Origin: Rhodanobacter humi
GTDB lineage: Bacteria; Pseudomonadota; Gammaproteobacteria; Xanthomonadales; Rhodanobacteraceae
Assembly: GCF_041107455.1 (NCBI RefSeq)
Contig: NZ_JBGBPY010000001.1
Coordinates: 1,240,001-1,304,000 of the forward strand
Length of the DNA: 64,000 bases
Reading direction: 5' to 3'
The position numbers and the translations under genes were made by a program. Positions 6,823-15,219 of this stretch are shown here, in pieces. Under the pieces are notes generated by a model. That model was given only the letters and a program-made list of their open reading frames with translations. It did not search any database and was not told the origin of the DNA. Each line of letters opens with the position of its first letter. Within the stretch, counting starts at the first letter, position 1.

Positions 6823-8220
6823 ATGAGCCAGCAGACCGTCCTGGTCATCGACGACGAGCGCGACATCCGCGAACTGCTCACCATCACGCTGGGGCGGATG
6901 GACCTGCAGGTCGACGCCGTGGGCACCGTCGCCGAGGCACGCTACGCGCTGGCCGGCAAAACCTACGACCTGTGCTTCACCGACATGCGCCTGCCCGACG
7001 GCAACGGCCACGAGATCGTCGAGCACATCGCCGCCAACCATCCGGACATGCCGGTGGCGATGATCACCGCCTACGGCAACGTGGACGCCGCGGTGAATGC
7101 GCTGAAGGCCGGCGCGTTCGACTTCGTCTCCAAGCCGGTGGACATCCAGATGCTGCGCCAGCTGGTGCGCACCGCGCTGCGCCTGGCCGAGGAAAAGCGC
7201 AGCGGCAAGGCCGCGGCCAAGGCTGGCGGCGCCGGCGACCGGCTGATCGGCGACTCGTCGGCGATGCAGCAGGTGCGCTCCACCATCGCCAAGCTCGCGC
7301 GCAACCAGGCGCCGGTGTACATCGCCGGCGAATCCGGCGTGGGCAAGGAGCTGGTGGCGCGGCTGATCCACGAGCAAGGCCCGCGCGCGACCGGTCCGTT
7401 CGTGCCGGTGAATTGCGGCGCAATCCCCTCCGAGCTGATGGAGAGCGAGTTCTTCGGCCACCGGAAGGGCAGCTTCACTGGCGCCGGCGCCGACAAGGAA
7501 GGCCTGTTCCAGGCCGCGCACGGCGGCACGCTGTTCCTCGACGAGGTTGCCGAACTGCCCCTGCACATGCAGGTGAAGCTGCTGCGCGCGATCCAGGAAA
7601 AGGCCGTGCGCCCGATCGGTGCGCGCGAGGAAGTGCCGGTGGACGTGCGCATCCTCTCCGCCACGCACAAGAACCTCGCCGCCCTGGTCGAGCAAGGCCA
7701 GTTCCGCCAGGACCTGTTCTACCGCATCAACGTGATCGAACTGCGCGTGCCGCCGCTGCGCGAACGCCGCGGCGACGTGTCGCTGCTGGCCGACTTCATC
7801 CTGCAAGGCCTCGCCCGCAAGAGCGGCGGCCAGCCCAGCCGCCTGCTGCCCGAGGCGCGCCAGGCGCTGGAAGCCTACGACTTCCCAGGCAACGTGCGCG
7901 AACTGGAAAACATCCTCGAACGCGCCACCGCGATGTGCGACGGCGAACACGTCGACGCCTACGACCTGATGCTGCCACAGCGCATGCCGCGCGCGGACGC
8001 CCCACCCGCCGCCCCCGGCCAGCCCGCACCCGCCGCGGCCCCCTCGCCCGCCAGCGCCACCGGCGACGGCGGCCTCGACGACTACATCAGCAACCTCGAG
8101 CGCGGCGCCATCGTGAAGGCGCTGGAGGAGTCGCGCTACAACAAGACCGCAGCCGCCAAGAAACTCGGCATCACGTTCCGGGCGCTGCGCTACAAGCTCA
8201 AGAAACTCGGCATCGACTGA
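6823..8220 (+). CDS. pilR: Sigma-54-dependent response regulator, PilR-like
   Basis: 465 residues. A receiver domain at residues 5-118 has the phospho-acceptor Asp54 in FTDMRLPDG. It is followed by an AAA+ sigma-54 activation domain with Walker A GESGVGKE near 169 and GSFTGA near 216, a Ser variant of the GAFTGA loop. The C-terminus is a Fis-type helix-turn-helix. The receiver (MRLPDGNG, AYGNVDAAVNALKAGAFDF) closely resembles PilR, which activates type IV pilin transcription in Xanthomonadales. No PilS sensor kinase lies beside it; the gene before it is an esterase. The PilR name is therefore by resemblance, and another NtrC-family regulator is possible. Confidence 0.75.
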   Translation: MSQQTVLVIDDERDIRELLTITLGRMDLQVDAVGTVAEARYALAGKTYDLCFTDMRLPDGNGHEIVEHIAANHPDMPVAMITAYGNVDAAVNALKAGAFDFVSKPVDIQMLRQLVRTALRLAEEKRSGKAAAKAGGAGDRLIGDSSAMQQVRSTIAKLARNQAPVYIAGESGVGKELVARLIHEQGPRATGPFVPVNCGAIPSELMESEFFGHRKGSFTGAGADKEGLFQAAHGGTLFLDEVAELPLHMQVKLLRAIQEKAVRPIGAREEVPVDVRILSATHKNLAALVEQGQFRQDLFYRINVIELRVPPLRERRGDVSLLADFILQGLARKSGGQPSRLLPEARQALEAYDFPGNVRELENILERATAMCDGEHVDAYDLMLPQRMPRADAPPAAPGQPAPAAAPSPASATGDGGLDDYISNLERGAIVKALEESRYNKTAAAKKLGITFRALRYKLKKLGID

Positions 8221-8968
8221 TGCCGCGGTTGGCCCTTCGCCCGCTTGCGGAGAGGCTCACGTGTTTCCCCTCGCCCGCTTGCGGGAGAGGGGTGGGGGGA
8301 GAGGGGCTCTGCCTGCCCCATTCGCCAGTTTTAAAGCCGTTTCGTGCGCCTGCCGGCGCCCGAGTGACTTCTCTTTTGCTTGTCCACGCCGCCGCAGGAG
8401 CAGCGGCGAACAGCGAAGCTGGCCTGAAGGGCGGAGGGCAGGATGCCCGGAGTCAAGGAGAAGTAGCCAAGAGGAAACGACACCCCGGTTGGCGCGTTCC
8501 GTCCATCCATGGACGGAACGTCCGTGAGGCGGTGCCGGGCTTTTCGAGCGGGCTCGGGCAACCGCTCCTGCGTTGCCTCAACTCCGGCGTCCATGCCGTC
8601 GCCTGCCCGCGCGAAAAGGCGAACCCATCCATGGGCTCGCCCACCGCGCGGCCTGATCGTCCCCACCTCACCGCCGCCCAGGGACCCCGGAAAAGCAGGC
8701 GCGCATCCTGCGCACCAGAAGCCAGTGTGCCGCCAGCCTGCAGCCATGCGCCGCTGCCATCCCGAGGCCCCCTCGTGCATATCGGCGTTTTCGGGGTGAT
8801 AAGACTTATGCCCCCTGTTTTGCGTGATATGCACACCGGCATGTCCTCGACCTCCGGCCCCAGGAGGAAGGCCAAACCGTTGCCTGCACGAAGAATTTCC
8901 TCGCTTGACGCTGGAGCTTCGGCGATGGAGCATGGCTTGCATATGCCCCGATCCGGGGTCTAATAAGC
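8221..8968. other. Gene-free, repeat-filled region left of the cassette array
   Basis: I find no credible gene in these 750 bases. It begins with a CCCTCGCCCGCTTGCGGGAGAGGG-type palindrome near 8270. Next comes a copy of the REP-like element also found at 13418-13497, and then palindromes with CCATCCATGG cores at about 8500-8520 and 8623-8642. ORFs here translate into the low-complexity products typical of such repeats. I searched the frames for an integron-integrase and saw none. A TTGACG near 8905 could be a -35 box but has no good -10. Confidence 0.6.
8339..8486 (-). repeat. REP-like hairpin element, interrupted copy
   Basis: Bases 8339-8385 and 8454-8486 together match, in reverse complement, the intact element at 13418-13497. 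The hairpin arms are separated here by about 68 bases of unrelated sequence (8387-8453). The intact copy has a 6-base loop. This suggests an insertion into the loop, or a longer ancestral form. Confidence 0.7.
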
Positions 8969-8975
8969 GTTAGAC
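8959..8975 (+). other. Left boundary of the array: attI or collapsed attC
   Basis: GTCTAAT-AAGC-GTTAGAC forms a 17-base near-inverted repeat with the same core sequences as the attC sites but no stem between them. GTTAGAC at 8969-8975 is the left core of the first cassette. It may be a degenerate attI or an attC that lost its central stem. Confidence 0.45.
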
Positions 8976-8978
8976 GTC

Positions 8979-9248
8979 ATGGAATCCATCGTGTCCCAGG
9001 AACCGCTCATCTGTGTTCGTTGCAACCTTCCCGTTGAAAAGAATGCTGCGTCCTACGAAGTTTTCGAGCGGATGCACTGGCTTTGCTTCCATCTGGAGTT
9101 TGAGCACCATGATGATCCAGATCGGCCCTGTGGTGATCCGAGCTGCCCTTGGTGGCACATAGAAGTTCTTCGGCAAAAAATTGTGTCTCTTGGCGAAGAT
9201 CCAGACCAGACAATTAAGCTTGCTATCAAAGATCGGTGGCATCTGTAA
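8979..9248 (+). CDS. Cassette a: small Cys-rich hypothetical protein
   Basis: 89 residues, starting three bases after the GTTAGAC core, as in other cassettes. Two cysteine pairs, CVRC near residue 12 and CGDPSC near residue 50, with several His and Trp residues could bind zinc. I do not recognise the family. Lower GC than the flanking genome and lack of its own promoter fit a captured cassette gene. Confidence 0.65.
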   Translation: MESIVSQEPLICVRCNLPVEKNAASYEVFERMHWLCFHLEFEHHDDPDRPCGDPSCPWWHIEVLRQKIVSLGEDPDQTIKLAIKDRWHL

Positions 9249-9250
9249 AC

Positions 9251-9307
9251 GTCTAACATTTCGTTCAAGGCGGACGGCTTCGCCGCCGCTTAACTCTAGC
9301 GTTAGAC
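9251..9307 (+). repeat. attC site 1
   Basis: 57 bases from GTCTAAC to GTTAGAC, which are exact complements. The centre folds through CGGACGGCTTCGCCGCCG. It ends cassette a and opens cassette b. Confidence 0.9.
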
Positions 9308-9317
9308 CTGCCCAGAC

Positions 9318-9620
9318 ATGCTTACAATCGACCTCAACGACCCAACCCAATTCACGCGTGAAAATGTTGCCAAGCTCATTGGCTCAGTCTTGGACACCCA
9401 GAACTGGCAGCTACGGGTTACAAAGCAAGGCATTGCGTACTTATCTGACGTAACGGGGTCACGTGACATAGAAGGCTTGGCGTTTCGCTTCGAGACTTGG
9501 AGTGCTAGGAACAACTATGTTGGGTTCCAAGCTGCGCATGACCAAAGCTGGGTCGCGCAGGTTTTCGCTGACCTCATGGAAAATTGGCCAGATCCAAAAG
9601 ATTCGTACATCGGGTGCTAG
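9318..9620 (+). CDS. Cassette b: hypothetical protein
   Basis: 100 residues, starting 10 bases after the attC 1 core. The stop TAG directly abuts the GTCTAAC core of attC 2. The sequence is mixed charged and aromatic (FRFETWSARNNYVGF) with no signal peptide or membrane segment, so probably a small soluble protein. I do not recognise the family. Codon use is far from the GC-rich flanks. Confidence 0.62.
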   Translation: MLTIDLNDPTQFTRENVAKLIGSVLDTQNWQLRVTKQGIAYLSDVTGSRDIEGLAFRFETWSARNNYVGFQAAHDQSWVAQVFADLMENWPDPKDSYIGC

Positions 9621-9630
9621 GTCTAACATC
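9621..9630 (+). repeat. attC site 2, left part (split by IS)
   Basis: GTCTAACATC is the R'' core and spacer. Joined to 11141-11187 it restores a 57-base attC, the same length as attC 1 and attC 3. The IS between them therefore inserted without deleting bases or making an obvious target duplication. Confidence 0.85.
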
Positions 9631-9646
9631 TCCGTAAGAGACTTCC

Positions 9647-9978
9647 GATCAAGCCCGGGCGCATGATGCTTTTGCCCTGAGCTTTCGGGCCACTGCTGGT
9701 CATGGTGTTGTCCTGTTTTCTACGTGCTGCGCGTCAGTGCTGTGCGTGCTGCAACGAGTGTCAGACGGCATTTCCGTAACCGGTCTTGTTGAGCCGATGT
9801 GGCCGACTCGGACCTCTGTATAAACCGCACCCGAAGACCTCTTTCGTTCATCGGACTGTCCGGGGATCGGGGATCGGCCGAAGCGCCGTTTGGACGTCCA
9901 TCCAGTTAGCCAGGTTCTCTCCGGGGTGGTCTGACCTGTTGTCTACCGTGTCGCGCTGACGATGGAGCGAAACTTCTT
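9647..9978 (-). ncRNA. Candidate seekRNA / bridge-RNA region of the IS
   Basis: This 330-base stretch lies 3' of the transposase gene and codes for nothing convincing. In IS1111-group elements the guide RNA is encoded downstream of the transposase. Read on the minus strand it contains GGCUAACU (complement of 9904-9911), resembling the left half of the attC target on its top strand. It then contains UGAACGA (complement of 9844-9850), the reverse complement of TCGTTCA in the right half. One guide per strand is the expected layout. The matches are short, so this is an inference. Confidence 0.5.
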
Positions 9979-11058
9979 CTAGGCCATGTGCCTCGCGTGG
10001 CTTTGCCGGTGCATCGGATGGTTCAGGCACGCGTGCGGGTCGTAGTCCACGTCGTGCGCCAGTACCGCCCAGATCTGCCGGGCGTGCTTGTTGGCGATGG
10101 CCACGATCACCTTGCCGAAGGGCAGGCGCCCATCGAGTGAGCGTATCCACAGCTGTTCCGGGGTGGCTTTCTCCGTGGCCACGGCCTTGGCCCGCTGCAG
10201 GCTGCTGCGGGCGCCCTGGATCAGCAGCGTGCGCAGGTAGGCATCGCCGCGGCAGCTGATGCCACCCAGTTGCGCATGCCCGCCGCTGGAATGTTGCGTG
10301 GGCACCAAGCCGAGCCACGCGGACATCTGCCGCCCCTGTTTGAACTCGCGGGCGTTGCCCACCGTGGCCACCGCCGCATCGGCGGTGATCGGGCCGATGC
10401 CCACCATGGCGCGCAACTGCACGCACCGCGCGTCCTGACGCGCGTGGGCTTCGATGCGTGCATCGCACGCGTCGAAGTGCAGGCGCACCTGCGTCCAGTG
10501 ATCGGCCAGGTCACGCAGCAACTCCTTGAACTCGGCGGGCAGTGCGAGCTGCGCATCCAGGTCCGCCAACCGTCGACGCAGCGCCCGATCGCTCTGCGCC
10601 ACGATCACGCCGAACTCGGCGAGCAGGCCACGGATGCGATTGCCGATGGCGAGCGATTCGGCCTTGTAGCCCTCGCGCACCCGATGCCACGACAGGCGCA
10701 CCTGCTGGTCGATGTCCTTGACCGGCACGAAGCGCATGTTGCCCTGGCGCGCCGCGGTGGCAATCGCCTCGGCGTCGGCGCGATCGTTCTTGCTGCGCGA
10801 GCTCTTGCGGAACGGTTTGACGAACTGGGCGGCCATGATCTTCGGCTGCAAGCCGTACGCCTGGCAGCGCCGCGCCCAATGGTGTGCCCCGCTGCATGCC
10901 TCCATCGCCACCACCGTGCCCGCCGGCAGCTGCGGCAGCCACGCGATAAACGCATCGCGACGCAGATCCTGCCGCCGCCGCACGTGGCCGGCGCCGTCCA
11001 TCTCGCACGCCGAAAACACGCTCTTCGCCAAGTCCACACCCAGGGTTATAGTGCTCAT
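9979..11058 (-). CDS. IS110/IS1111-family DEDD transposase
   Basis: 359 residues, full length for the family. The N-terminal RuvC-like domain begins TLGVDLAKSVF with the first catalytic Asp and continues to MEACSGAHHWAR and KNDRADAEAIA. The C-terminal transposase_20 part includes MVGIGPITADAA and SAWLGLVPTQHSSGG, near the conserved catalytic Ser region. The frame is intact, so the element could be active. It is transcribed against the direction of the cassettes. Confidence 0.93.
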   Translation of the reverse strand: MSTITLGVDLAKSVFSACEMDGAGHVRRRQDLRRDAFIAWLPQLPAGTVVAMEACSGAHHWARRCQAYGLQPKIMAAQFVKPFRKSSRSKNDRADAEAIATAARQGNMRFVPVKDIDQQVRLSWHRVREGYKAESLAIGNRIRGLLAEFGVIVAQSDRALRRRLADLDAQLALPAEFKELLRDLADHWTQVRLHFDACDARIEAHARQDARCVQLRAMVGIGPITADAAVATVGNAREFKQGRQMSAWLGLVPTQHSSGGHAQLGGISCRGDAYLRTLLIQGARSSLQRAKAVATEKATPEQLWIRSLDGRLPFGKVIVAIANKHARQIWAVLAHDVDYDPHACLNHPMHRQSHARHMA

Positions 11059-11140
11059 GGAGACTTCCTCTTCTGCTGACGGTTGTGTCGCAACACCATC
11101 ATGGCCTTCGAGGCCGTAAGGGGAGGAAGTCTCTTTTTAC

Positions 11141-11187
11141 TCGTTCAAGGCGGACGGCTTCGCCGCCGCTTAACTCCAGCGTTAGAG
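11141..11187 (+). repeat. attC site 2, right part
   Basis: TCGTTCAAGGCGG through GTTAGAG. It continues attC 2 after the IS. GTTAGAG is the left core of cassette c and is the exact complement of that cassette's CTCTAAC. Confidence 0.87.
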
Positions 11188-11190
11188 CCC

Positions 11191-11622
11191 ATGAAGAATA
11201 TCGCACGCCTTGCCCTTGCCGCCCTTATATTGACTAGCCTGCTGGCCTGCTCAGATGCTTACAATTCGTTCTTTGGATGCAAGCCCGATCTCATTAGTAC
11301 GGTTCCATCTCCTGACGGAAAGTACAAAGCAATCACTCGAGTATGCGGCTGCAGTGCGGATGTGGGACGTCATCTGAGTACCGCAATTGTCCACTCGAAC
11401 ACACAAGGTAGCTGTCACGACCTTAAAGACGAGTCTCTTGCAATCTCTTGGAATAATACTGACAAGTCAAGCGCATCTGTACTCTGGCAGGACAATCGAA
11501 CGCTAGAGGTAAAGTATTCTGCTGGCACCACCAACATCAACAACGAGCCACTAACATTACCTAGGCGCCGAATCTCATCATCCTTGGCGCCGAAAATAGT
11601 TGGGCCGACGAACAGTCTCTAA
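11191..11622 (+). CDS. Cassette c: putative lipoprotein
   Basis: 143 residues from the ATG three bases after the attC core; the longer open frame upstream runs into the IS and is not real coding. The N-terminus is a lipoprotein-type signal with Cys20 in LTSLLAC followed by SDA, so probably a membrane-anchored periplasmic protein. Several further cysteines (FGCKPD, VCGCSAD, GSCHD) may form disulphides. The function is unknown. The TAA stop lies inside the CTCTAAC core of attC 3. Confidence 0.68.
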
Positions 11623-11673
11623 CACCTCGTTCAAGGCGGACGGCTACGCCGCCGCTTAACTCCAGCGTTAGCC
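11617..11673 (+). repeat. attC site 3
   Basis: 57 bases from CTCTAAC to GTTAGCC, nearly identical in its stem to attC 1 and 2 (one T to A change in the loop). It separates cassettes c and d. Confidence 0.9.
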
Positions 11674-11678
11674 GTCTT

Positions 11679-12308
11679 ATGAATAATCCCTGGCTTGAAA
11701 TTCCGCTCTCGGACTATGAGTCCCACATGTCGCTGCCAACAATTGCTCAGGCTGAAATGTTGGCTGCCCAATTCTCGAACGCTTTGCTCCAGTTCTCACC
11801 GGAGTCCGTTGCAGTTATCGGCTGTGCCGGCGGCAACGGCTTCGACAGAATTCCCTCTACAACGAAGCGCGTGATTGGCGTTGACATCAACCCAAGCTAT
11901 ATCGCTTCTGCTTCATCTCGTTACCTCGGGCGTATTGCTGGCCTCGAATTTCATGTTGCTGACATTCAGGCTTGTCCGTTGCAATTCGACCCCGTCGAAC
12001 TTATTTACGCAGCCCTAGTGTTCGAGTATGTCTCGCTTCCTGCGGCATTAGGCAATTTGTCGCGTGTGTGTCGTCCCGGCGCACGTTTGGTTTCGGTACT
12101 TCAACTGCCATCGGCGCATGTGCACGGGGTGTCACAATCGCGGTATCAAAGTGTTCAAGTGCTTGCCCCGCTCATGCGCCTAATCCCCCCTGGAGATCTG
12201 GCTGAGTGTGCCGCATCATCTGGTTTCACGCTGGAGTCGGAGAAAACATTGGCGCTCGAGTCGGGGAAAGAGTTTTCCATTCAGGTCTATCGCCATGCAG
12301 CCGGCTAA
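11679..12308 (+). CDS. Cassette d: class I SAM-dependent methyltransferase
   Basis: 209 residues. The Rossmann-fold signs are motif [14 protein letters not shown], the acidic end of strand 2 in [10 protein letters not shown] and a motif II region [25 protein letters not shown]. The closest broad match is the Methyltransf_11/25 type; the substrate is unknown. GC content is lower than the flanks. The TAA stop overlaps the GGCTAAC core of attC 4. Confidence 0.78.
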
Positions 12309-12368
12309 CCCTGCGTTCGAGACGACCTGCGCGAAAAGCTGCGCAGGCACCTCAACTTCACGTTAGGC
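12303..12368 (+). repeat. attC site 4
   Basis: 66 bases from GGCTAAC to GTTAGGC. The stem (CCTGCGCGAAAAGCTGCGCAGG) differs from the other sites, so cassette d probably came from a different pool. Confidence 0.82.
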
Positions 12369-12381
12369 ATCAGTTGAAGAT

Positions 12382-12831
12382 ATGACGCAAGTCCAACAAT
12401 CAACGACCTTACATGGTGGCTGTCACTGCGGCAGCATTCGAGTCGAATTCACCACAGTCCGAGACCTTGCAAGCACTAGCCCTCGGGCGTGCGATTGCAG
12501 CTTCTGCCAAAAGCATGGGGCGGCGTACATCTCGGATCCTTCGGGTGCTCTACGCGTGGTTGCCGCAAAACCAAAAACGCTGCATTCCTATCGCCAAGGT
12601 TCGGAATTGGCTCGCTTCCAACTATGTGGTCAGTGTGGCGTCCTCGTTGCTGTTACCTTCGAACACAAAGGCAGCACATATGGTGCTGTCAATGTCGGCT
12701 GCCTTGATGAGCTTGGGCTTCTCGGTGCCCGCGTGCCGGCATCACCGCAGCTGCTGAGCCCGCAGGAGAAAGTTTCACGGTGGCTGCGAGTTTGGGTGCC
12801 AAATGTGCAGCTGGTAGTGTCTGGTACCTAA
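12382..12831 (+). CDS. Cassette e: GFA-family protein
   Basis: 149 residues with the zinc-ligand pattern of the GFA (glutathione-dependent formaldehyde-activating-like, PF04828) family: GGCHCGSIRVEF near residue 13, CDCSFCQKHGA near 38 and CGQCG near 82. Few of these proteins have a proven reaction, so an enzymatic role with glutathione adducts is only a family-level guess. The TAA stop lies in the ACCTAAC core of attC 5. The cassette's two cores differ at one base. Confidence 0.82.
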   Translation: MTQVQQSTTLHGGCHCGSIRVEFTTVRDLASTSPRACDCSFCQKHGAAYISDPSGALRVVAAKPKTLHSYRQGSELARFQLCGQCGVLVAVTFEHKGSTYGAVNVGCLDELGLLGARVPASPQLLSPQEKVSRWLRVWVPNVQLVVSGT

Positions 12832-12881
12832 CCAGTCGTCCAAGCGGGCGGCTTCGCCGCCGCTTGACTCCAGCGTTAGCC
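12826..12881 (+). repeat. attC site 5
   Basis: 56 bases from ACCTAAC to GTTAGCC, with the same GCGGCTTCGCCGC stem type as sites 1-3. Confidence 0.86.
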
Positions 12882-12903
12882 GTCAGCAAACAGGAGGTCA
12901 CGC

Positions 12904-13092
12904 ATGTCTGCTCTCTCCTTCAACAAAGTCGCAACACTCATCTTTGGCTTGGTCGCCGCAGTGCAACTTGCCAGATTGATCTTCGGTTTCCCTATTCTGA
13001 TAGGTGGGGTCACCATTCCAATCTGGGCTTCCGGCATTGGGTTTCTCGTTGCCGGAGGAATGAGCCTCTGGGGCTTGCGCACCAAATCCTAA
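12904..13092 (+). CDS. Cassette f: small two-helix membrane protein
   Basis: 62 residues with two predicted membrane helices (roughly residues 8-28 and 37-56) and a short charged tail. A strong ribosome site, CAGGAGGT, precedes the ATG. Similar small membrane proteins are common integron cassette genes in Xanthomonas relatives; their role is unknown. Confidence 0.72.
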   Translation: MSALSFNKVATLIFGLVAAVQLARLIFGFPILIGGVTIPIWASGIGFLVAGGMSLWGLRTKS

Positions 13093-13127
13093 GTGGCGGT
13101 TGGCGTTCTCTTTTCATGGTTGCTGGC

Positions 13128-13134
13128 GGCTAAC
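13128..13134 (+). repeat. Truncated attC 6 (R'' core only)
   Basis: GGCTAAC is the exact complement of cassette f's left core GTTAGCC. No stem or closing GTTRRRY follows, so the array is cut here. Confidence 0.6.
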
Positions 13135-13417
13135 TAATCCGTAGAAAACACGGGTCAGGAAAACACTGGTCAGAGTGCAATTCTCCGCGACACGACTGGG
13201 CCGCTTCCGCAGCCACTACGCGGCTGCGTCCGAGTACGCGCCGGGAGCGCGCTGCTTTACCCGGGGCCCCTATGGCACGGCGGATGGGTGGAGGAAAGTC
13301 CGCAGAATGGCCGGCAGGAGGCCGGCCAGTTTTTCGCCGGTACATGGATGTGCCGTCGGAAAACCCCGTAACCCGCCCGCGCACCCGCAGGGCAGGATGC
13401 CTGGAGGGCGCGCCATC

Positions 13418-13497
13418 GGGGTGTCGTTTCTCTTTGGCTACTTTCTCTTTGGACAAGCAAAGAGAAAGTAGCTCGGGCGCCGGCAGGCGCACGAAAC
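13418..13497 (+). repeat. REP-like hairpin element, intact copy
   Basis: Contains a perfect 15-base stem, GCTACTTTCTCTTTG at 13437-13451 pairing with 13458-13472, with the six-base loop GACAAG. The flank GGCGCCGGCAGGCGC adds a second palindrome. An inverted, interrupted copy is at 8339-8486. Confidence 0.85.
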
Positions 13498-13621
13498 CGC
13501 TCTATCGCTCGCGGCAGCGCCGAAGCAAAAGCCCCTCTCCCCTACCCCTCTCCCACAAGTGGGAGAGGGAAAATCTCGCAACTGCGGCAGCGTTGAGGCG
13601 AGCACCCGCCCCTCACCCCAA

Positions 13622-13644
13622 CCCTCTCCCCGAAGGGGAGAGGG
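13622..13644. repeat. CCCTCTCCCC/GGGGAGAGGG palindrome
   Basis: A 10-base perfect stem with loop GAA, just 3' of the REC-kinase hybrid gene on the minus strand. It may help end transcription, but no T-run follows. Related palindromes are at about 8270-8310 and 29871-29990. Confidence 0.6.
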
Positions 13645-13656
13645 CTTCATGCGGCA

Positions 13657-15219
13657 TCAGCCCGCGGTGCTGACCAGCGCCAACCGCAGCGTGCGCAGCA
13701 GTTTCCGCGTGGTGACCGGCTTGTCGAGCACGTGCAGGCGCGGCAGCGGCGGGAGTTCGTCGAGGTCCGGCGGCGCGTCGGGACGTACCAGCATCACCAC
13801 CGCGCTGTCGTAGCCCTGCTCGACCAACGCGCCCAGCGTGCGCACGGCGGTGAACAGGTTCATGTCGGCGTCCATCAGCACCAGGTCGGGCAGGCCGTGC
13901 GCGCCGATCCACTGCAGCGCGGCGGTGCCGCTCTGGCTGGCATGGGCCTGGTAGCCCCACGCATCCAGCGTGTCGCTGAGCAGGGACAGCTGACTGGCCG
14001 CCTCGGCCACCACCAGCACCTGCTCGGCGGCGCCTTCGAGGCTGTCGCTGTCGTCGCCGTTCGCCTCGGCGGCGTCCGCCGCCGGAGCCTGCAGCGGGAT
14101 GTACAGGTCGAAGCGGGTGCCGCGGCCGGGCACGCTGTCCACCCGCATCACGCCGCCGTGGCTGGTGACGATGCGCCGGCAGGACACGAGGCCGAGGCCG
14201 GTGCCGTTCTCCTTGGTGGTGAAGAACGGTTCGAACAGCCGCGCCAGCACCTCGCGGCTCATGCCGGGGCCGTTGTCGGCCACGCTGAGGCGCAGGTGGC
14301 GACCGGGATGCGGCTCCTCCCCGGACAGGAAGAACTCCGGGTCGAGCCGTTGCTGCGCGGTCTCGATGCGCAGCTCGCCGCCTTCGGGCATCGCCTGGAT
14401 CGCGTTGAGGCAGAGGTTGAGCAGGCATTGCTGCAGCTCGGTGTGATTGCCGGCGAACGTGAGTTCGGGGGCGTCGACCGCGATCTCCATGTGGATCGCG
14501 CGCGGCACGCTGCCCTGCAGCAGCAGGCCCAGCGCGTCCATCAGCCCGCCCAGGCGCACCTGCTCGGCGCGACGCGCGCCGCGGGCGAAGGACAGCATCG
14601 ACTGCACCATGTCCAGCCCGCGCTTGCCGCAGTCGCGCACCAGTTCGCCCAGCCGCGCCAGCTGCGGGTCCTCGGCATGGTCGCGCAGGCTGTCGCCGGC
14701 CAGCAGCAGCGGCTGCAGCAGGTTGCGCAGGTCATGGCTGAGGCCGCCGGCGAGCATCGCCAGGCTCTCGAAGCGCTGGGCGCGGATCAGCTCGGTCTGG
14801 GCGCGCTGGCTGGCGCGGCGCTCGGCGGCCTCGACCAGCGCGCGGCGCACCGCGCTGGCGAGGCGCGCGGGGTTCTGCTTGAGGATGTAGTCGGTGGCGC
14901 CGTTGCGCAACGCCTCGATCGCCGCCTCCTCGCCCAGCGTGGCGGAGACGTAGATGAAGGGCAGGTCCGGGTCGCGCTGGCGCAGCAGCTCCAGCGCGCG
15001 CTGGCCGGAGAAGCTCGGCAGGCTGAGGTCGGACAGCACGATGTCGGGCACGAACTCGCGCAGCGCGACGAGATAGGCCTCCTCCTCGTCGACCACCCGC
15101 GCCTCGTGCGCGAGCCCGTCGTCGTCGAGCTCGGCCAACGCCAGCTCGGCGTCGTTGCGGTTGTCCTCCACCAGCAGCACCCGGATCGGGCGTGTGTCGC
15201 TGCCGTGCGCACCGTGCAT
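13657..15219 (-). CDS. Hybrid REC-histidine kinase-REC protein
   Basis: 520 residues, no membrane segment. An N-terminal receiver has Asp64 in VLSDLSLPS. A dimerisation/H-box follows with His162 in GGLSHDLRNLLQP, then an HATPase domain (NLCLNAIQAMPEGG, DNGPGM, GTGLGL). The C-terminal receiver-like domain has a candidate Asp in LVLMDADM. A cytoplasmic kinase with its own input receiver usually relays phosphate from another kinase. The membrane kinase and single-domain regulator directly upstream on the same strand are the obvious partners, 209 bases away. Confidence 0.87.
   Translation of the reverse strand: MHGAHGSDTRPIRVLLVEDNRNDAELALAELDDDGLAHEARVVDEEEAYLVALREFVPDIVLSDLSLPSFSGQRALELLRQRDPDLPFIYVSATLGEEAAIEALRNGATDYILKQNPARLASAVRRALVEAAERRASQRAQTELIRAQRFESLAMLAGGLSHDLRNLLQPLLLAGDSLRDHAEDPQLARLGELVRDCGKRGLDMVQSMLSFARGARRAEQVRLGGLMDALGLLLQGSVPRAIHMEIAVDAPELTFAGNHTELQQCLLNLCLNAIQAMPEGGELRIETAQQRLDPEFFLSGEEPHPGRHLRLSVADNGPGMSREVLARLFEPFFTTKENGTGLGLVSCRRIVTSHGGVMRVDSVPGRGTRFDLYIPLQAPAADAAEANGDDSDSLEGAAEQVLVVAEAASQLSLLSDTLDAWGYQAHASQSGTAALQWIGAHGLPDLVLMDADMNLFTAVRTLGALVEQGYDSAVVMLVRPDAPPDLDELPPLPRLHVLDKPVTTRKLLRTLRLALVSTAG

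Follow-up and report, generated by a model that had tools for sequence, protein, structure and literature searches.

Predicted bridge/seekRNA of a divergent IS1111-type element inserted in attC in Rhodanobacter humi: guides for the target site and covariation with the IS right end

IS1111 elements that target attC, the recombination site of integrons, include ISKpn4, ISPst6, ISPa21, and ISPa25. According to PMC11187229, this group carries a non-coding region downstream of the transposase gene and a seekRNA in which the T guide lies 5' of the B guide. In ISKpn4 and ISPst6, a seekRNA with matches to the attC target co-purifies with the transposase, and the same matches have been predicted in ISPa25. 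A seekRNA was shown to be essential for ISEc11, where a short form sufficed, while the role of the long seekRNA and the recognition of IS1111 ends were left open in that paper. In the IS110 group, IS621 places its target and donor guides on a single RNA, with a core dinucleotide common to both; this RNA lies upstream, with reversed guide order and a simple donor loop (PMC11208160). That work also predicted, from six IS110/IS1111 elements, a multi-loop in IS1111 RNAs as a possible place of donor binding, and a search of part of the later literature over titles and abstract openings found no work testing donor guides in IS1111 elements.

The window, a stretch of 64,000 nucleotides of the Rhodanobacter humi genome, contains a complete IS1111-type element of 1510 bp inserted inside an attC site. 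The element was placed at 9633..11142 (minus strand) because of its 11-bp subterminal inverted repeat (sTIR; AAGAGACTTCC) with a 7-bp left-end extension (GAGTAAA) and a 3-bp right-end extension (ACG). The right-end arm (9636..9646) is preceded by its extension at 9633-9635, and the left-end arm (11125..11135) is followed by its extension at 11136-11142. The transposase gene (9979..11058, minus strand) encodes a DEDD transposase of 359 aa with the domains PF01548 and PF02371, matched by the NCBIfam model for IS110 family RNA-guided transposases. It contains GLVPTQHSSG, corresponding to the motif GL-P----S(t)G, which is given as a mark of IS1111 (GL-P----SG) in PMC11187229; the protein is slightly longer than the 330-350 aa stated there. 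As in other IS1111 elements, the longer non-coding region lies downstream of the transposase gene (346 bases versus 84 upstream). The original prediction had located a candidate guide RNA in this downstream tail and had given the tail 330 bases. The location stands, but the length is 346 bases (9633-9978), since the IS ends at 9633, a position fixed by the extensions of 7 and 3 bp and by relatives in which the site is empty.

Sequence and empty sites identify the flanks as the R'' side of attC (GGTCTAACATCTC; 9620..9632, plus strand) and its remainder (GTTCAAGG through GCGTTAG; 11143..11186, plus strand), with the insertion point between R'' and L''. Joined, the flanks read TCTAACATCTCGTTCAAGG, a stretch that is uninterrupted in the relatives G181, G158, and G201 (100% identity over 58-60 bases); therefore, the IS ends are correct and no target duplication occurred. 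The genome carries five full copies, all with identical ends and all at the identical attC position and orientation (read in the sense of the transposase, TTGAAC|GANNNGTTAG, where NNN differs in each of the five). This position at one end of attC is that of ISKpn4, and position and orientation are the same in ISKpn4 and ISPa25, whose flanks (L062 and L064) were compared. However, the transposase shares only 36-38% identity with its counterparts in ISKpn4, ISPa21, and ISPa25, and the sTIR sequence differs from that of the IS1111-attC group. Sequence comparison thus supports a divergent new attC-targeting IS1111 member with a predicted bridge/seekRNA. Elsewhere in the same genome, an IS right-end remnant without transposase (L060, G000:C1:1570300-1571600) adjoins GTGGTTAG.

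Tails corresponding to the downstream region were gathered from relatives in genome contigs (45 loci), whole genomes, and plasmids. An alignment of 45 sequences revealed about 179 conserved nucleotides, which delimit a predicted structured RNA of 179 nt at 9759..9937 (minus strand). Its consensus structure comprises 38 pairs, 17 of them with changes on both sides; 97.8% of 1706 cells can form their pair versus 89.6% in shuffled alignments, and the covariation score is 0.296 versus 0.130, a value reached by none of 500 shuffles, while slid controls remained at or below 0.062. Folding energy was no better than in shuffles (z of 0.46 and 0.63) and was discarded as evidence for the RNA. Minimum-energy folding leaves both segments singled out by the original prediction unpaired; there, GGCUAACUGGA and AUGAACGAAAG face each other from opposite sides of one internal loop. 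A covariance model built from the 45 sequences without ISKpn4, ISPa21, and ISPa25 detects the RNAs of ISPa25 (E 1.4e-8), ISKpn4 (2e-6), and ISPa21 (7e-5), which indicates that these RNAs are homologous to that of the window. The latter is longer than the model match in the IS1111-attC group (179 versus about 140 nt), and the hairpin that separates its target guides is longer as well. Rfam returned no family above threshold for 7000-14000, and two sub-threshold matches lie elsewhere in that range.

Both segments were found where the original prediction had put them, at 9904-9911 (plus AGTTAGCC, minus GGCTAACT) and at 9844-9850 (plus TCGTTCA, minus TGAACGA), 53 bases apart. The top-strand match lies 5' of the bottom-strand match, the order described for IS1111 seekRNAs in PMC11187229, so that two short matches to the two target strands are present in the seekRNA arrangement. 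The putative target guide B, UGAACGA (9844..9850, minus strand), matches the L'' side of attC and the GA core in seven of seven bases, spanning the insertion point (TGAAC|GA). The putative target guide T (9900..9909, minus strand) consists of CUAAC, able to pair with GTTAG of attC R'', and five variable bases; the likeness to the target that had been claimed for GGCUAACU holds for the five bases CUAAC but not for the rest of that segment. The possibility that such matches merely reflect chance draws on dinucleotide shuffles of the tail with its last 30 bases left out, in which a left-flank match of at least 7 arose in 105/2000, a right-flank match of at least 5 in 1525/2000, and both in 81/2000. 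Judged from the window copy alone, the two matches are borderline. Nevertheless, they are secured by the comparative data rather than by the single copy, and covariation across many relatives makes chance an extremely improbable explanation.

Guides and flanks were compared in a table of 57 distinct rows (eight from G126 and five from the genome of the window, each set with the same RNA; for L033 and L041, the cut was manually moved one base), of which 49 served for guide B and 47, at standard spacing only, for guide T. Guide B agrees with the left flank at 201/294 bases versus 157.3 by permutation (0/20000; 49 distinct rows). Among the 35 rows taken as attC, a class that includes L041, accepted by the attC rule but not an attC by eye, agreement is 153/210 versus 141.4 (6/20000), and with one row per RNA (24 attC rows) the observed value is reached by 271/20000 permutations; the signal among attC rows is thus modest. 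At the last base of guide B, 27 of these 35 rows agree, seven combine RNA U with target C, possibly a wobble, and one combines RNA C with target T; on the transposase tree, independent pairs change in the same way in 3.4 and in the opposite way in 0.5 of 5 cases. For guide T, agreement between the right flank and the five bases that follow CUAAC amounts to 106/235 positions versus 80.0 (0/20000), and to 69/175 versus 57.5 in attC rows (61/20000). This signal resides in the base adjoining CUAAC (29/47 versus 15.6; 22/35 versus 12.8 in attC rows; 0/5000 each), although in the window element it fits one of five own target sites. The second base is significant only when non-attC rows are included, and the remaining three show no significant agreement with the right flank. 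The tree-based tests, which use a quickly computed tree with some long branches, point in the expected direction with low power (median p of 0.125 and 0.25).

Further sets gave the same direction. In six plasmid elements (6 of 12, those with an sTIR of at least 10 bases; transposases 44-47% identical to that of the window), a selection that was not strictly blind as the first elements had been seen beforehand, cross pairings reached the value of own pairings in 54/20000 permutations for guide T and 86/20000 for guide B. In a mixed set of 17 elements that includes related rows, the T, B, right-end, and left-end guides all beat cross pairings (0/20000 each); here L063 was left out, the L103 RNA was shortened by the extraction rule, L068 and L073 share one RNA, and the right flank of L106 is cut by a contig end. 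Among attC-like sites in the genome of the window, those with an exact UGAACGA fit are occupied in five cases and empty in three, and those with one mismatch are occupied in none and empty in four, which is only suggestive of a preference for exact fits; the search returned 33 matches (28 and 16 in its reversed control), of which 25 with two mismatches and 1923652, lacking GTTAG, were left out. Both guides covary with insertion sites.

Relatives at other sites bear on whether RNA or protein sets this specificity. L019 inserts at CCGACA|GGCTGCTAG, where no attC is recognisable by eye, and carries CCGACAGA as guide B. G126 holds eight copies, each at a different site that lacks the usual L'' sequence of attC; their guides are AAGACGA and CUAACCUGCC, the latter matching one of these sites (L073) over ten bases and the others in part, with varying GTTAG spacing. 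The attC rule (RYYYAAC, far side) could not classify these sites because it recovers only 11 of 23 standard ones, and two of them (L069 and L071) are possibly unusual attC sites. More distant elements with other flanks carry matching RNA sequences (L101, UCAUCCCA; L103, AAUGUCCG; L105, UACCGCG). Retention of the same segments at different targets, which would have spoken against the guide reading, was not seen for UGAACGA. CUAAC gives a divided picture, being kept at other sites (L019, L041, L065, L066, and G126) but replaced in L101-L105 by sequences matching their own flanks; the flanks of the former mostly retain GTTAG or a near form. That CUAAC, nearly invariant and kept in L066, is a mere scaffold was considered and rejected, because the replacements in L101-L105 fit their own flanks and because the base that follows CUAAC shows covariation with the target.

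It is established that attC sites fold and are conserved. Hence, the transposase or the folded attC could set specificity while the conserved RNA has another role, e.g., in regulation, a reading to which the non-significant folding energy lends itself and which, within attC rows alone, guide pairing cannot be told apart from, since GTTAG and CUAAC are nearly invariant. Against it, RNA loop bases track differing flanks in L019, L101-L105, and the six plasmid elements, and the ISKpn4 RNA co-purifies with its own transposase (PMC11187229), which leaves protein-set specificity very improbable. The preferred reading, anticipated by the original prediction, is that RNA sets attC specificity through one guide per strand; it is supported by the covariation of guides with flanks, by the changed guides of relatives at other sites, by the loop position, and by the homologous RNAs.

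Side observations concern individual insertions in this collection. One G126 copy (L075) inserted directly at the right end of another copy, with the left flank GGGAAGTCTCTTAC. The right flanks of L026/L094 and L085 are not attC, and in L026/L094 this flank opens with a sequence resembling the end of a different IS1111 element (ATGGACTCC). In L063, where an ISPa21 copy lies outside attC, the left-end extension is unlike that expected from the RNA of this copy. In a Klebsiella plasmid (L067 2501-2604), about 105 bases of attC and IS left end, 85% identical, occur without an annotated transposase of the IS kind.

Beyond the target loop in the 3' direction, the RNA contains UUACGGA (9773..9779, minus strand), a predicted donor guide that matches the IS right end, TTACG followed by the core GA. 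Over five bases in 53 of the 57 rows (L027a, L065, L066, and L091 have no readable guide), guide and right end agree at 261/265 positions versus 216.4 (0/20000); the two are identical in 49 of 53 rows, which fall into seven variants, and differ only in L015, L026b (with L094), L040, and L085. The agreement holds with one row per RNA (35 rows). In 24 further scorable loci, scored by eye (L141 was not scorable), the five-base match recurs in 19 (10/15 close and 9/9 distant), and three of the five failures have an insert in the loop. Matches include ISKpn4 (ATATG), ISPa21 and ISPa25 (ATATA), L105 (TTGTAG), and L106 (ATACATG), so that the homologous RNAs of the three known elements likewise match their own right ends. 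In addition, the RNA of ISSm1 (L162, a Klebsiella plasmid annotation) holds UUAUAGUAC, matching its own right end CTTATAG|TAC, although this element has another target and a transposase 44.7% identical to that of the window. The tree implies at least 14 changes of the right end and at least 11 of its guide; of five independent pairs on supported branches, 3.8 change concordantly and none in opposite ways, too few for significance. In the six plasmid elements, the right-end guide beats cross pairings (141/20000). An insert of about 24-28 nt (GACCGAAGGAAATCCCC...GGGA) occupies the donor loop of L027 392-593, L091/L139, L137, L138, and L143, and three of the carriers scored no longer match their own right end.

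The left end may be read, less surely, by UUUAUAC (9818..9824, minus strand), a candidate donor guide that matches GTAAAAA in six of seven bases, one mismatch remaining in the window element. Its agreement with the left end is not reached by cross pairings in the 17-element set (0/20000), but is not better than cross pairings in the six-element set (3330/20000). This weak left-end guide, together with ISEc11, for which a short seekRNA without the part equivalent to UUACGGA sufficed (PMC11187229), gives some room to a reading in which the guides of the RNA serve the target alone, UUACGGA resembles the right end for another reason, such as RNA or DNA structure there, and sTIRs and protein recognise the ends. 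Such a reading is unlikely given the many changes on the tree, in step in 49/53 rows, the same RNA/right-end agreement in ISKpn4, ISPa21, ISPa25, and L105-L107, and the multi-loop donor binding predicted for IS1111 RNAs in PMC11208160. A guide for the donor end that forms the left half of the junction, here the IS right end, characterizes bridge RNAs, and covariation points to one in this RNA. Therefore, the sequence data support a bridge/seekRNA that carries target guides and, at a minimum, one for the right end, resembling IS621 in combining target and donor guides in a single RNA with a shared core dinucleotide, but differing from it in the downstream RNA and in donor guides placed in a multibranch part. 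Donor guides may be dispensable in some IS1111 members, because the short seekRNA sufficed for ISEc11.

The element is very probably an RNA-guided IS1111-type transposon whose guides read attC and the IS end. By analogy with the IS110/IS1111 mechanism, excision would yield a circle whose joined ends act as a promoter transcribing transposase and RNA. These ends give TTGATC-17-TAAAAA, and 38 of 41 distinct junctions retain the spacing of 17, in line with the promoter that ISEc11 is described as forming at its circle junction (PMC11187229). The transposase-RNA complex would then hold circle junction and attC together through guide pairings, and recombination at the shared GA would produce an oriented insertion without target duplication. 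Many attC sites could serve as targets because mainly conserved attC bases are read, and a change of guide would retarget the element. The transposase tree places the ISKpn4/ISPa25 lineage among elements with other targets. On balance, a combined proposal is somewhat favoured, namely that the long IS1111 seekRNA is a complete bridge RNA, whose 3' part reads the element's own ends in donor recognition, and that the present Lysobacterales lineage and that of ISKpn4/ISPa25 reached the same attC site separately by guide reprogramming; IS1111 ends and RNA would then evolve together because the 3' part reads those ends.

For ISKpn4 and ISPst6, earlier work had described a seekRNA that matches attC (PMC11187229); newer is the evidence that the same RNA may read IS ends. 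Most useful among the new findings is the covariation between the RNA and the IS right end, which offers a direct, testable answer to the role of the long seekRNA and to IS1111 end recognition, both left open in that paper. It appears that a transposon can specialize on integron recombination sites through an RNA reading mainly conserved bases, and can also be retargeted naturally. Naturally matched combinations of guide, target, and end could be useful for programmable DNA insertion.

The surroundings of the element form a cassette array. Three attC copies without IS lie in the window (9248-9305, 11614-11671, and 12822-12879), and an integron integrase (C1:2168326) is located beside two of the five own IS copies, with the window array about 0.9 Mb distant. 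Two cassette genes, at 11679-12308 and 12382-12831, encode methyltransferase-like and GFA-domain proteins; three further small ORFs have no Pfam match. The cassette island is flanked by inverted repeat pairs at 8264-8487 and 13417-13638, which are 80-89% complementary.
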